47,121 bases of DNA, taken from contig JAJAZC010000200.1 of assembly GCA_026785885.1 (NCBI GenBank), forward strand, positions 1 to 47,121, read 5' to 3'. Below the pieces are notes generated by a model. The model did no database searches, had not been told where the DNA came from, and was given only the letters and a program-made list of their open reading frames with translations. The stretch comes from Rubrivivax sp. Its GTDB lineage: Bacteria; Pseudomonadota; Gammaproteobacteria; Burkholderiales; Burkholderiaceae_C. Positions 6,999 to 38,646 of the stretch are shown here, in pieces (position 1 is the stretch's first letter; the number at the start of each line of letters is the position of its first letter). A program made the position numbers and the translations under genes.

Positions 6999-8267
6999 TC
7001 AAGTAGGCGAGGGCAGGGCCGCCAACCGCTCACCGGCCGGCGGGTGGGAGTAATAGAAGCGCGCATAGACCGGGTCTGGCGTCAGCGTGGCGGCGTTGTC
7101 CTCGTGGAGCTTGAGCAATGCGTTGGCCAAGTCGCGTCCATCCGCCTGCAAGCAGGCGTAAGCGTCGGCCTCGAACTCGTGGCGGCGCGAGAAGTACGCC
7201 ATCAGTGGTGAGACAAAGTAGCCGAAGCTCGGCACCACCATCATGAACAGCAGCAGCGCCAGCGCATCGTTGGGCGCGCTCATGTTGGGCCGCACGCCCA
7301 GGCCCGTATAGAAGCCGCTCTGCTGCGCCAGCCAGCCCAGCAGCGCCAGCCCCGCCAGGCTGATGGCGAAGATGCCCAGCAGCCGCTGCAGCACGTGTTT
7401 GTGTTTGAAGTGGCCCAGCTCGTGCGCCAATACCGCTTCGACCTCACCCGGCGACAGGCGCTGCAGCAGTGTGTCGAAGAACACCACCCGCTTGGCCGCG
7501 CCCAGACCAGTGAAGTAGGCGTTGGCGTGCGCCGAGCGGCGGCTGCCGTCCATCACGAACAGGCCCTTGGCGGCAAAACCGCAGCGTTGCATCAGCGCTT
7601 GCACACGGGCCTTCAACGACTCGTCGGCCAGCGGCTCGAACTTGTTGAATAGCGGCGCAATGATGGTCGGGTAGATCACCATCAGTAGCAGGTTGAAAGC
7701 CACCAGCGCGGCCCAGGCCCACAACCACCACAGCCCACCGCTGGCACCCATCAGCCACAACACCAGCGCGGCCAGTGGCAGCCCGATCAGCGCGCCGATC
7801 AAGGCACCCTTGAGCTGGTCGACGATCCACAGGCGCAGGGTCATGCGGTTAAAGCCAAAACGCTGCTCGATACGAAACGTGGCCCACAACTCCAGCGGCA
7901 GCTCGATCAGACCGCCGATCGCGGTGACCGCGGCCACCAGCACCAGTTGATAAGCCAGCGCGCCCCACGCCGGCATCACAACGGCCCGCAGCAGCAGGTT
8001 CAGCGCGTCCAGCCCGCCCAACAGTGTCCAGCCCAGCAGCACTGCGCTTGCGATGGCGGTGGTCCACAGGCCGAAGCGGCCTTTGGCCAGCGTGTAGTCG
8101 GCCGCGCGCTGGTGCGCAGCCAGCGTCACGGTGCTGATGAAGGCGGTCGGCACGGCGTGGCGGTTGAGCGCCACGTGGCGCATCTGGCGTGTGGTCAGCC
8201 ACAACTTGGTGGCCAACGACAGCAGCAAAGCGGTCGCGAAAGCCAGGGTGACAACGCTCGGTTCCAT
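6999..8267 (-). CDS. M48 family zinc metallopeptidase (Ste24/CAAX-protease-like)
   Basis: VLAHELGHFKHKHVL zinc motif; SRRHEFEADAYA; hydrophobic segments. Confidence 0.92.
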   Translation of the reverse strand: MEPSVVTLAFATALLLSLATKLWLTTRQMRHVALNRHAVPTAFISTVTLAAHQRAADYTLAKGRFGLWTTAIASAVLLGWTLLGGLDALNLLLRAVVMPAWGALAYQLVLVAAVTAIGGLIELPLELWATFRIEQRFGFNRMTLRLWIVDQLKGALIGALIGLPLAALVLWLMGASGGLWWLWAWAALVAFNLLLMVIYPTIIAPLFNKFEPLADESLKARVQALMQRCGFAAKGLFVMDGSRRSAHANAYFTGLGAAKRVVFFDTLLQRLSPGEVEAVLAHELGHFKHKHVLQRLLGIFAISLAGLALLGWLAQQSGFYTGLGVRPNMSAPNDALALLLFMMVVPSFGYFVSPLMAYFSRRHEFEADAYACLQADGRDLANALLKLHEDNAATLTPDPVYARFYYSHPPAGERLAALPSPT

Positions 8268-34693: not shown

Positions 34694-35219
34694 GTGCGGG
34701 CCCCGGACGGCACCGGCTTTCGGGCACCCCGCTTCAGCGAGCTCTACCGGCCCGCAAGCTACGGCAGCAGCCCGGCCTTTATCTACGACTCCGTCACCGA
34801 CAGCTTCGACGTAGGTCATCGATTACGAGCGTCAGTTTGGCAAGCTCGAGCCGCTGGTCAGCAACGTCGGCCGCTTTCTCAACGACCAGGTGATTCAGCG
34901 TTGGCACCACCGCGCCAGCGCCGACTGGGGCGCCGGCGACTTCGGCCTGACGTTGGTCAACACCTGCTAGGGCGGCTACACCGACGACAGCTACCTGCGC
35001 TACGCCGCGCCGCGCCGGGTCGAGGCCTACTCGCTGTGGGACCTGTCGGGTGGTTGGGCCGTCAACAGGCAGCTGCAGCTGCGCGCCGGCCTGCAGAATT
35101 TGCTCGACACCGACCCGCCTTTTTCCAACCCGAGCTACTACTTCCTGTCGACCTACGACCCGACCTACACCGACCCCCGCGGCCACACCTTCTACGCGAG
35201 CCTGAAGTGCCAGTTCTGA
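34694..35219 (+). pseudogene. C-terminal remnant of TonB-dependent receptor
   Basis: GTGFRAPRFSELYRPASYGSSPAFIYD, frameshift near 34810, FLNDQVIQRWHHRASADWGAGDFGLTLVNTC*GGYTDDSYLRYAAPRRVEAYSLWDLSGGWAVNRQLQLRAGLQNLLDTDPPFSNPSYYFLSTYDPTYTDPRGHTFYASLKCQF*. Confidence 0.85.
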
Positions 35220-35463: not shown

Positions 35464-35787
35464 ATGACCGCCGACCAAATCCTTGCCGAGATCCGCGAAG
35501 CCAATCTGTCCTATCTGATGCTGGCTCAAAGTTTGATCCGCACCGACCGCGAGCAGGCGCTGTTCCGCCTGGGTGTCAACGAGGACACGGCTGCGCTGAT
35601 CGGCACCTTGACGCCGGCGCAGATGATGAAGATGGCCGGCGGCAACACGCTGCTGTGCCGCTTTCGCATGGACGACGACCTAGTGTGGAACCTGCTCACC
35701 AGCCACGGCAAGGGCGCGGCCAACGACGGCATGAGCCGCCTGCACGCGTCGATCCTGCTCGCCGGCCGGCACCAGGAAGCAGCTTGA
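35464..35787 (+). CDS. flhD: Flagellar transcriptional regulator FlhD
   Basis: ILAEIREANLSYLMLAQSLIRTDREQALFRLGVNEDTAALI; followed by flhC. Confidence 0.96.
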   Translation: MTADQILAEIREANLSYLMLAQSLIRTDREQALFRLGVNEDTAALIGTLTPAQMMKMAGGNTLLCRFRMDDDLVWNLLTSHGKGAANDGMSRLHASILLAGRHQEAA

Positions 35788-35788
35788 C

Positions 35789-36364
35789 ATGGCACGCAGC
35801 AAAAGCATCCTGACCGAAGCCAAGCAGATCGAGCGCGCGGTGACGTTGATTCACCTTGGCGCGCGCCTGCAGGTGCTGGAAAGCGAAACTGACATCAGCT
35901 ACGAGCGCCTGTTGCGCCTGTACAAGGAAGTGGCCGGCAAGAGCCCGAGCAAGGGCCAGCTGCCGTTCTCGACCGACTGGTTCATGACCTGGCAGCCCAA
36001 CATCCACGCCAGTCTGTTTCTCAACACGCACGAGTATCTGAACAAGGTCGCGGTGCTGGACGAGATCGACACCGTCATCAAGGCCTACCAGCTCTACCTG
36101 GAGCAGATGCAGAGCGAAGGCCTGGAGCCGCTGTTGAGCGTGACGCGGGCCTGGCGTCTGGTGAAGTTCGTCGACAACGGCATGTTGACGATGACGGCCT
36201 GCAGCAAGTGTGGTGGCCACTTCGTGACGCACCCGCACGAGATCGCGCGCCACTATGTGTGCGGCCTGTGCAACCCGCCGGCGCGTGCCGGCAAGGGCAA
36301 GATGGCTGGTGCGCTGCAAATTGGCGCGCAGGCCCGCGCCGACCACCACGCGCTGGCGCATTGA
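35789..36364 (+). CDS. flhC: Flagellar transcriptional regulator FlhC
   Basis: RLYKEVAGKSPSKGQLPFSTDWFMTWQPNIHASLF; CSKCGGHFVTHPHEIARHYVCGLC zinc site. Confidence 0.97.
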   Translation: MARSKSILTEAKQIERAVTLIHLGARLQVLESETDISYERLLRLYKEVAGKSPSKGQLPFSTDWFMTWQPNIHASLFLNTHEYLNKVAVLDEIDTVIKAYQLYLEQMQSEGLEPLLSVTRAWRLVKFVDNGMLTMTACSKCGGHFVTHPHEIARHYVCGLCNPPARAGKGKMAGALQIGAQARADHHALAH

Positions 36365-36372
36365 GCGCTTGA

Positions 36373-36435
36373 GCGCACCGCGCGCACCGCGCGCACCGCG
36401 CGCAACGTGGGCAACGGGCACAACGTGGGCAACCT
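36373..36435. repeat. 9-bp tandem repeat (gcgcaccgc to gggcaacgt type) x7
   Basis: gcgcaccgc x3, gcgcaacgt, gggcaacgg, gcacaacgt, gggcaacct, starting 8 nt after flhC stop. Confidence 0.9.
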
Positions 36436-36583
36436 GCGGGGTGAGCGTGATCGGCGCGCCCTGAGGTGTGCCCCGATGAACGCGCGCCGTGCGTCGCCCA
36501 CGCCGACGACAACGCGGCCGTTTGTCACGCCAGGCGGCAGCGGCGCACTCAAGGCGTCAGGCGCCTGAGCCGAAAAACTGGGG

Positions 36584-36666
36584 GTGCAGTGAGAGTTTCA
36601 TTGCACGTCTCCTCCGGGCACAGTTGACTGTGCTTTCAGCGGGCCGCAACCGGCCCGCTTTTTTTT
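36584..36666 (+). ncRNA. Candidate three-hairpin small RNA ending in intrinsic terminator
   Basis: gtgcagtgag-agt-ttcattgcac; linker gtctcctccg; gcacag-ttga-ctgtgc; agcgggccg-caac-cggcccgct followed by T8. Confidence 0.45.
36638..36666 (+). terminator. Rho-independent terminator
   Basis: 9-bp perfect GC-rich stem, 4-nt loop, eight T. Confidence 0.9.
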
Positions 36667-36746
36667 GGCCGACGCGCCGAGCAGGGCCGGCATGACCGGC
36701 GTTATCTGCGGATGCCGTGGCCTACCGCGGCCGACACTGCTGCGGC

Positions 36747-37778
36747 ATGCGCGTCCGGACCCCCACACCAGCGATCGTCCGTCAGACCCTCGGTCTGCGC
36801 TGGCCACAGTGGTTGTTGCTGAGCTTGCAACCGCGCTTGCTACAGCGCGTGCTACAGCGCTTGCAGCCGCGCTTGCAACTGTGCCCACAACCGCGCTGGC
36901 CGATGCCCGCGCTGCTGGCCTGGGCCGCGGCCTGGTCGGTCTACGGCGCTGCGTCTTGGCTGGCAATACCGCTGACGGCTGCGCTGTTGATGGCCACGGC
37001 CACCGGCTCGGCAGCAGCCGGGCTGACGCAGGGCAGGCTGCGGCGTCTGCTGGTGGCCGGCGGCTTTCCGCTGTCGGCATTGGCCTCTGGGCTGACTGCG
37101 GCGTGGCCGACCTGGGCCTGGTTGCTGCTGTTGCTGCCGCTGTCGGTGGCCTACCCGCTGCGGGCTTGGCGTGACGCGCCGTTTTTCCCGACACCGGCTG
37201 CGGCCCTGGTCGGCGTGCACCAGGTCATCGGCCCGGTGCAGCGGCTCGTTGATGCCGGCTGCGGCCTTGGCCATGCGCTGCAGGCGCTGCGTGCCGAATG
37301 GCCGGCAGCGCACTGCGCCGGTGTCGAGTGGAGCCCGCTGCTGGCGCTGCTGGCGCGTTGGCGCTGCCGCTGGGCGCAGATAGAGCGTGCCGACCTGTGG
37401 GCCAGGCCGTGGCACGAACACGATCTGGTCTACGTTTTCCAGCGCCCTGAGAGCATGGTCCGTTTGTGGGCCAAGGCGCAGGCCGAGATGAAGCCGGGTG
37501 CCTGGCTGGCCAGCCTGGAGTTTGCGGTGCCGGGTGTCGAGCCGCAGGCCTGCTGGCACAACGCCGGCCAGCGGCCGCTGTGGCTGTACCGGCCAAATAG
37601 TCCAGGACCCCAAGGGCCCCGGGCCCCCGGCGCTGCGGCTCAATCGAACCGCGGGCCGGCCGATAACCCACGCAAGGTGCAGGCCGGCGCCACCTTGGCC
37701 ATCGCCCGTCGGGCACCCACCAATCACTCTCCCGTCAAGCAGCACTCACCCGGTACCCGCCCGGTACTCACTCGGTAA
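36747..37778 (+). CDS. Class I SAM-dependent methyltransferase-like membrane protein
   Basis: VDAGCGLGHALQALRAEWP SAM motif; N-terminal hydrophobic segments; location between flhC and motA. Confidence 0.75.
   Translation: MRVRTPTPAIVRQTLGLRWPQWLLLSLQPRLLQRVLQRLQPRLQLCPQPRWPMPALLAWAAAWSVYGAASWLAIPLTAALLMATATGSAAAGLTQGRLRRLLVAGGFPLSALASGLTAAWPTWAWLLLLLPLSVAYPLRAWRDAPFFPTPAAALVGVHQVIGPVQRLVDAGCGLGHALQALRAEWPAAHCAGVEWSPLLALLARWRCRWAQIERADLWARPWHEHDLVYVFQRPESMVRLWAKAQAEMKPGAWLASLEFAVPGVEPQACWHNAGQRPLWLYRPNSPGPQGPRAPGAAAQSNRGPADNPRKVQAGATLAIARRAPTNHSPVKQHSPGTRPVLTR
36824..36895. repeat. 12-bp in-frame tandem repeat x6 near methyltransferase N-terminus
   Basis: cttgcaaccgcg cttgctacagcg cgtgctacagcg cttgcagccgcg cttgcaactgtg cccacaaccgcg. 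Confidence 0.88.
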
Positions 37779-37785
37779 ACAGGAC

Positions 37786-38646
37786 ATGTTCGTCATCATC
37801 GGTTGGGTCCTGGCCCTGGGCTGCATCTTCGGCGTGTACGTCGTGCATGGCGGCAACATCGGCGTGATCCTGAAGGCGCTGCCGTTCGAGATGATCACCA
37901 TCTGCGGCGCTGCAGCCGGCGCCTTTTTAGCCAACAACCAGATGAAGGTCGTCAAGGCTTCGATGCGTGGCGTGGCGCAGTGCTTCAAGAGCAGCAAGTT
38001 CAACAAAGCGCGCTACATGGAGCTGCTGGCGCTGTTGTTCGACATCCTGCAGAAGGCGCGCAAGGAAGGCCTGATGTCGATCGAGAAAGACGTCGAGGAG
38101 CCCGGCACCAGCCCGCTGTTTTTGAAGTACCCGACAGTCGGCACCGACCACCACGTCACCGAGTTCATCACCGACTATCTGCGCATGATGGTCTCGGGCA
38201 ACCTCAACGCGCACGAGATCGAATCGCTGATGGACAGCGAGATCGAAACCCACCACGCCGAAGAGCACGCCGCCGTGGCGGCAATAGCGCGGCTGGCAGG
38301 CGGCTTGCCGGCCTTCGGCATCGTGGCTGCGGTGCTGGGTGTCGTCAACACCATGGGCAGCGTCGGCCAACCTCCGGCGGTGCTGGGCGGCATGATCGGC
38401 TCAGCACTGGTCGGCACATTCCTGGGCATCCTGCTGGCCTACGGTTTTGTCGAGCCGCTGGGTGGCCTGCTGGAGCAGAAGGTCGAAGACGCCACCAAAG
38501 AGCTGCAGTGCATCAAGACCACGCTGCTCGCGAGCATGCAGGGCTATGCGCCGCAAGTTGCGATCGAGTTCGGCCGCAAGGTTTTGTACAGCGGCGACCG
38601 CCCGACTTTCGTCGAACTCGAAAGCCACGTGAAGGGCAGGAAATGA
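37786..38646 (+). CDS. motA: Flagellar motor stator protein MotA
   Basis: MFVIIGWVLALGCIFGVYVVHGGN; AAIARLAGGLPAFGIVAAVLGVVNTMGSVGQPPAVLGGMIGSALVGTFLGILLAYGFVEPLG. Confidence 0.97.
   Translation: MFVIIGWVLALGCIFGVYVVHGGNIGVILKALPFEMITICGAAAGAFLANNQMKVVKASMRGVAQCFKSSKFNKARYMELLALLFDILQKARKEGLMSIEKDVEEPGTSPLFLKYPTVGTDHHVTEFITDYLRMMVSGNLNAHEIESLMDSEIETHHAEEHAAVAAIARLAGGLPAFGIVAAVLGVVNTMGSVGQPPAVLGGMIGSALVGTFLGILLAYGFVEPLGGLLEQKVEDATKELQCIKTTLLASMQGYAPQVAIEFGRKVLYSGDRPTFVELESHVKGRK

Follow-up and report, generated by a model that had tools for sequence, protein, structure and literature searches.

A putative sigma-28-driven anti-Shine-Dalgarno small RNA gene downstream of flhC in Rubrivivax and related Burkholderiales

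Downstream of the flagellar master regulator gene flhC of a Rubrivivax sp., we identified a conserved element that is predicted to give an 84-nt small RNA (sRNA) primary transcript (36583-36666, plus strand). All positions refer to the window, which is the whole analysed stretch of 47,121 nt. Judged from the sequence, the element is probably a free-standing sRNA gene of the late flagellar class, driven by sigma-28, whose product would pair with Shine-Dalgarno (SD) sequences and turn the respective mRNAs down. We further incline towards regarding it as an S17-type anti-SD RNA under the control of FliA at the locus that harbors MotR in E. coli, which would make it a new sRNA subfamily of the Rubrivivax/Leptothrix-type Burkholderiales.

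The flagellar master regulator subunits are encoded on the plus strand by flhD (35464-35787; Pfam FlhD, E 4e-40) and flhC (35789-36364; Pfam FlhC, E 3e-84), with flhC immediately upstream of the element and 94-96% identical to its nearest Rubrivivax-type relatives. The sRNA block begins 219 nt past the flhC stop codon, and the distance from flhC to the conserved core is 240 nt in the window versus about 60-130 nt in most relatives. Short GC-rich tandem repeats (CGCGCACCG, CAACGTGGG) are present right behind flhC at 36365-36435. Between the sRNA and motA lies a methyltransferase-like open reading frame (36717-37778) with a sub-threshold Pfam match to Methyltransf_23 (22.6 versus 27 bits); motA follows at 37789 (Pfam MotA_N and MotA_ExbB), and motB was also confirmed by Pfam. 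Upstream of flhD, the plus-strand region 34800-35219 resembles by eye a TonB-dependent receptor C-terminus that is broken by in-frame TAG codons, and may be a pseudogene.

The minimum free energy of the region 36584-36666 is -41.7 kcal/mol, as compared to -23.5 +/- 3.2 kcal/mol in shuffled sequences (z = -5.77), and none of 200 shuffles folded as well. This bears out the 83-nt block and its three-hairpin fold, both of which had been described in an earlier note made from the letters of this DNA. Hairpin 1 (36584-36606) is present, with 9 bp and a 5-nt loop in the RNAfold structure instead of the 10 bp and 3-nt loop of the earlier description, which included an extra G-U pair; its 3' arm contains a conserved 5' piece, UUCAUUGC. 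The subsequent linker GUCUCCUCC (36607-36615), the anti-SD seed, is single-stranded as had been supposed, with an unpaired probability of at least 0.98 at each base. Hairpin 2 (36616-36635; GGGCACAG-UUGA-CUGUGCUU) has the UUGA loop that had been noted, but its stem comprises 8 bp and not 6. The Rho-independent terminator (36638-36666) consists, exactly as described, of a 9-bp stem (36638-36659) and U8, and it is the strongest among five such sites found in 3 kb. A search for tRNA and tmRNA genes found none, no Rfam family matched anywhere in the window at the gathering thresholds, and a whole-genome search revealed no close DNA copy of the sRNA. An antisense reading frame starting from GCAATG was rejected, as it is not conserved and its ATG is lost in Aquabacterium-type loci.

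The conservation of the element was analyzed with 81 flhC loci, namely the window and 80 loci fetched from public genomes, with relatives that include Rubrivivax, Leptothrix, Ideonella, Aquabacterium, Piscinibacter, and others. The anti-SD core, the middle hairpin, and the terminator were found just 3' of flhC in 70 loci and were missing from the other 11, so that more than the terminator is retained, and a trans-acting-type sRNA gene, as had been proposed, is very probably real. The carriers are Burkholderiales of the Rubrivivax/Leptothrix/Ideonella/Aquabacterium type and not simply Comamonadaceae, to which the earlier note had pointed. In all 70 elements, a core of the GTCTCCTCC type precedes a short hairpin, behind which a GC-rich terminator is located; the overall consensus is TTCATTGCTTGTCTCCTCCTGGCACAG-N4-CTGTGCTTTC-terminator. 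In the 51 elements that were aligned, the seed columns C15, C17, C18, T19, C20, and C21 (first-row numbering) are invariant, and the linker that had been recognized as anti-SD sequence is indeed the most conserved part of the sRNA. Each column holds about 0.1 bit of information upstream, more from position -8 on, and mostly 1-2 bits over the core, with a return to background past the terminator, so that the boundaries are sharp. Directly ahead of the core is the conserved 5' piece TTCATTGC (36597-36604, plus strand; alignment A1), with mostly 0.5-0.9 bits per column at positions -8 to -2 against a background of about 0.1.

The two downstream hairpins are also supported by covariation. Over 15 pairs in two helices of the 51-element alignment, 95.0% of the cells are paired, and 58 both-side changes were counted as compared to 11.2 +/- 4.7 in shuffles, none of 500 shuffles being as high; these changes affect two pairs of hairpin 2 and seven of the nine terminator pairs. 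When the partner was slid by 1-3 columns as a control, pairing fell to 28-56%, a comparison that is partly favored because the stems were derived from that same alignment. Hairpin 1, on the other hand, is not conserved in the relatives: only 10 of the 70 elements fold at all at their 5' end with -4 kcal/mol or lower, and the -12.7 kcal/mol of the window is followed by -6.3 kcal/mol as the next best value. Even locus L216, which is from the same genus and has the identical 5' piece UUCAUUGCACGUCUCC, lacks this hairpin. The three-hairpin design therefore holds for the second and third hairpins, while the first is a local feature peculiar to this genome.

A terminator is expected past flhDC, and the one found here is strong, so that the element could in principle only serve to end flhDC transcription and not act as a regulatory RNA. 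The alignment largely refutes this and makes it highly improbable, as conservation is highest in the unpaired GUCUCCUCC core and not in the terminator, a second covarying hairpin is kept, and the core is common to proven sRNAs.

The consensus of E. coli sigma-28 (FliA) promoters is TAAA-N15-GCCGATAA, to which the form TCAAGT-N13/14-GCCGATAA, present ahead of the RNA in most relatives, corresponds. A candidate sigma-28 promoter that matches this form at 12 of 14 positions is located at 36549-36576 on the plus strand, with the -35 element TCAAGG (36549-36554), a 14-nt spacer, and the -10 element GCCGAAAA (36569-36576), an arrangement common to most relatives. The best promoter scores had a mean of 11.07 of 14 versus 8.43 in Markov-shuffled sequences, with no shuffle above 10, the scoring form having been picked after sight of the sequences. 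As this choice was post hoc, we repeated the scoring with the E. coli consensus and obtained 9.09 for the 70 flhC-linked RNAs versus 7.24 for 25 RF02278-type RNAs from loci without flhC linkage (Mann-Whitney p = 4e-10, a value that overstates independence because the loci are related). The distance from the -10 box to the core is near-constant among the flhC-linked elements, with a median of 26 nt. The best plus-strand sites of the 47-kb window precede cheY (39809), motA (37640), and the sRNA, with an equal-scoring site at 6999; the sRNA promoter is the second-best plus-strand site, tied with that of motA. With the strict pattern, 12 sites were found in the own genome versus four with the reversed pattern, and these sites precede, among others, genes for MCP, CheD, FliD, FliT, GGDEF-EAL, HD-domain, and response regulator proteins. 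In E. coli, the annotated motR start leaves 6 nt between GCCGATAT and +1; carried over to the window, this spacing predicts a start at 36583, one base ahead of the block described earlier, and the end is given by the terminator. A sigma-28-type promoter with the correct spacing is thus located directly upstream of the sRNA, which supports the suspected link to flagellar control.

The earlier note had left open whether the RNA is free-standing or cut from the 3' untranslated region of flhDC. In the latter case, the RNA would mainly be released from the flhDC mRNA by RNase E, and its level would follow flhDC transcription and not FliA. Several aspects suit such an origin: core and flhC share the strand, with 4-240 nt from the flhC stop codon to the core, the sRNA terminator is the first strong one past flhC, S17S arises by RNase E processing (PMC11722255), and in a minority of loci (e.g., L059, L078, and L082) the element is less than 50 nt from flhC and has no sigma-28 box. 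However, most loci have the sigma-28-type promoter just upstream at near-constant distance, and the interval between flhC and this promoter is little conserved. The conserved promoter with a start at 36583 makes the RNA more likely free-standing than a fragment of the flhDC mRNA, and we consider the origin by processing unlikely.

With the same promoter, the element might also act in cis, as a leader or attenuator for the operon that follows it, which comprises the methyltransferase-like gene and motAB, with sigma-28 transcripts that stop at the terminator unless they are read through. E. coli motR has the same position and promoter type, such a role has been proposed for motR-motA (PMC10578931), and the downstream open reading frame begins about 50 nt past the terminator. 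Nevertheless, motA has a sigma-28-like site of its own in the window (37640-37666, plus strand; TCAATC-N13-GCCGATAA; window scan) and in 38 of 53 relatives with a locatable motA, and a leader leaves the conserved anti-SD core unexplained. We therefore regard this explanation as very unlikely, albeit a dual role is possible.

The own draft genome (89.9% complete, 227 contigs) has flhDC, motAB, flagellin, and fliD genes as well as an Hfq gene. No match to FliA was found in it at the cut-off, which is probably due to an assembly gap.

A model, R1, was built on flhC-linked elements only. In the own genome, R1 gave 71.9 bits for the window RNA, 39 bits for C96:14255-14325 (L093:1501-1571), and 21.8 bits for C19:12368-12441 (L094:1501-1574). 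The second of these is a member of RF02278 with 55.1 bits, adjoins coq7, and apparently is the S17 orthologue of this genome. The genome thus has a separate S17 counterpart adjoining coq7, and the flhC-linked RNA comes in addition to it. The third is a weaker relative that reaches 27 bits with RF02278 and consists of GUCUCCUC, a hairpin, and a terminator. In the sample of the family, R1 matched at E <= 0.01 in 71 of 201 genomes, and of 30 family elements fetched with their surroundings, 28 had flhC nearby and one more had a partial match. In a sample taken from the rest of the order, RF02278 members made up the strong R1 hits; flhC was absent from their vicinity, and their sigma-28 scores were at background level. 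In the samples searched, the flhC-linked form was thus found only in the GTDB family of the window.

The window RNA itself reaches 23.4 bits (E 0.014) with RF02278, the family of betaproteobacterial toxic sRNAs of the S17/bdhR1 kind, whereas the gathering threshold is 50 bits, and no match at E <= 0.5 was obtained with seven other flhC-linked loci. As it is below the threshold, we do not file the flhC-linked RNA under RF02278 and only liken its working mode to that kind. The window RNA shares with that kind an unpaired GUCUCC(UCC) close to its 5' end (36607-36615), but it does not have the CACC-GGUG first hairpin with its CU-rich loop and has GGCACAG-N4-CUGUGC(UU) instead, with which the hairpin of L093 and L169-L185 contrasts. 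The low score and the different hairpin 2 sequence suit a convergence, by which the likeness to RF02278 and S17 would consist of a short anti-SD string and a terminator, with no common descent. On the other side, R1 picks up RF02278 members in other families with up to 52.6 bits, at least 13 of which pass the RF02278 threshold, and it recognizes the S17 orthologue of the own genome with the 39 bits mentioned above. Convergence is therefore possible but rather doubtful, and it would be compatible with a sigma-28-driven, SD-pairing sRNA.

As to the function of such a free-standing sRNA, FlhDC would turn on FliA (sigma-28), and sigma-28 RNA polymerase would start at the promoter seen at 36549-36576 and produce the RNA of about 84 nt up to the observed terminator. 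The U-rich tail should permit Hfq binding. By analogy with S17 and NmsR, the exposed GUCUCCUCC would pair with SD regions that contain GGAGGAGAC or shorter versions of it, block 30S binding, and thereby lower the translation of several mRNAs. The outcome would be a brake on genes with such SD sequences that is timed by flagellar assembly. Our best guess is that the controlled genes serve uptake and catabolism; flagellar genes are also possible.

The target prediction with the seed, which the earlier note had suggested, revealed no conserved target in the own genome or in 26 genomes of the genus. In the own genome, GGAGGAGAC-N3-9-ATG, which contains the full 9-nt complement, preceded no gene and occurred only within the two sRNAs themselves, read from the opposite strand. 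In the 26 genus genomes, it preceded about 70 scattered genes, and no widely conserved target orthologue was detected, as none accounted for more than four of the hits. Genes that recurred were those for solute-binding proteins, TctB/TctC, permeases, and PQQ dehydrogenases; the control SD sequence GAAGGAGGT gave only 17 usable genes, too few for an adequate control. A start region (GGAGGAGAC..GCAAUGAA) complementary to the whole 5' end (UUCAUUGCNNGUCUCCUCC) was rejected as a target, as the own genome has no such gene. A feedback loop with flhD as a target was likewise rejected: the flhD leaders of about 75 relatives have ordinary SD sequences, mostly GGAG with C or A as the next base, with no clear complementarity and no conserved extra pairing. 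As a side aspect, genomes from the genus of the sRNA have AGGAGGAGAC before ATG about once each (0-3), as compared to 6-8 times in three sampled genomes of other families; the seed complement may be avoided, or the difference may just follow from composition.

Sigma-28-dependent sRNAs were demonstrated earlier in E. coli (PMC10578931) and Campylobacter (PMC4626219). If our interpretation is correct, the flhC-linked RNA would be a third and apparently independent case, in betaproteobacteria and with a simple, testable seed. The "toxic"/S17 kind of sRNAs, whose physiological roles are poorly known, would gain a relative with a clear signal, the checkpoint of flagellar assembly, and bacteria that build flagella may simultaneously turn down other genes. 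The literature searched, which lies outside most subscription journals, does not describe any sRNA linked to flhC in Burkholderiales.

Among the known systems, Bordetella S17 likewise combines GUCUCCUCC close to its 5' end with a short hairpin and a terminator. Its Site 1 represses BP2158, for which compensatory mutations that restore pairing were tested, and exponential growth is reportedly unimpaired (PMC11722255). S17 adjoins coq7 and is transcribed from a sigma-A promoter before RNase E processing (PMC11722255), whereas the flhC-linked RNA differs by its sigma-28-type promoter, its GGCACAG...CUGUGC hairpin 2, and the lack of a second CU-rich stretch in the loop. The RF02278 sRNAs of Burkholderia (ncS03, ncS05, ncS27/bdhR1, and ncS62), which are of the "toxic" or double-hairpin kind, share the exposed GUCUCC 5' end, a two-hairpin body, the terminator, the anti-SD logic, and the occurrence of several copies per genome, but unlike for the flhC-linked RNA, we found no flagellar linkage for them (PMC5688073, PMC4603805). 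The Neisseria NmsR A/B sRNAs (RF02877), for which the Rfam search of the window gave no hit, are similar in having three stem-loops, a UC-rich anti-SD sequence between SL1 and SL2, and SD masking in multiple mRNAs; they differ by a second anti-SD sequence in the SL2 loop (PMC5362039). With their anti-SD regions, they repress mRNAs of the TCA cycle (PMC5362039). Campylobacter CjNC1 and CjNC4 are also sigma-28-dependent small RNAs of the flagellar system, but they belong to an unrelated group, reportedly with leaders of sigma-54-dependent flagellar genes as predicted targets (PMC4626219).

The closest parallel in position is E. coli MotR, a sigma-28-dependent sRNA between flhC and motA (PMC10578931), which has the same place, a sigma-28-type promoter, a strong terminator, and a length of 95 nt as compared to the predicted 84 nt. 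Homology was rejected, as R1 gave no match at E <= 1 with the E. coli flhC-motA locus, and MotR has neither the GUCUCCUCC seed nor any likeness in sequence or structure to the window RNA. MotR reportedly pairs inside the fliC and rpsJ coding regions (PMC10578931), and its promoter is inside flhC and serves motAB as well, whereas motA of the window seems to have its own. If our view holds, unrelated RNAs at the flhC-motA position would couple flagellar assembly to the translation of other genes in two lineages, in that of the window by direct SD masking, and this repeated use of the same gap would suggest that a tie between translation and the building of flagella is a general need.
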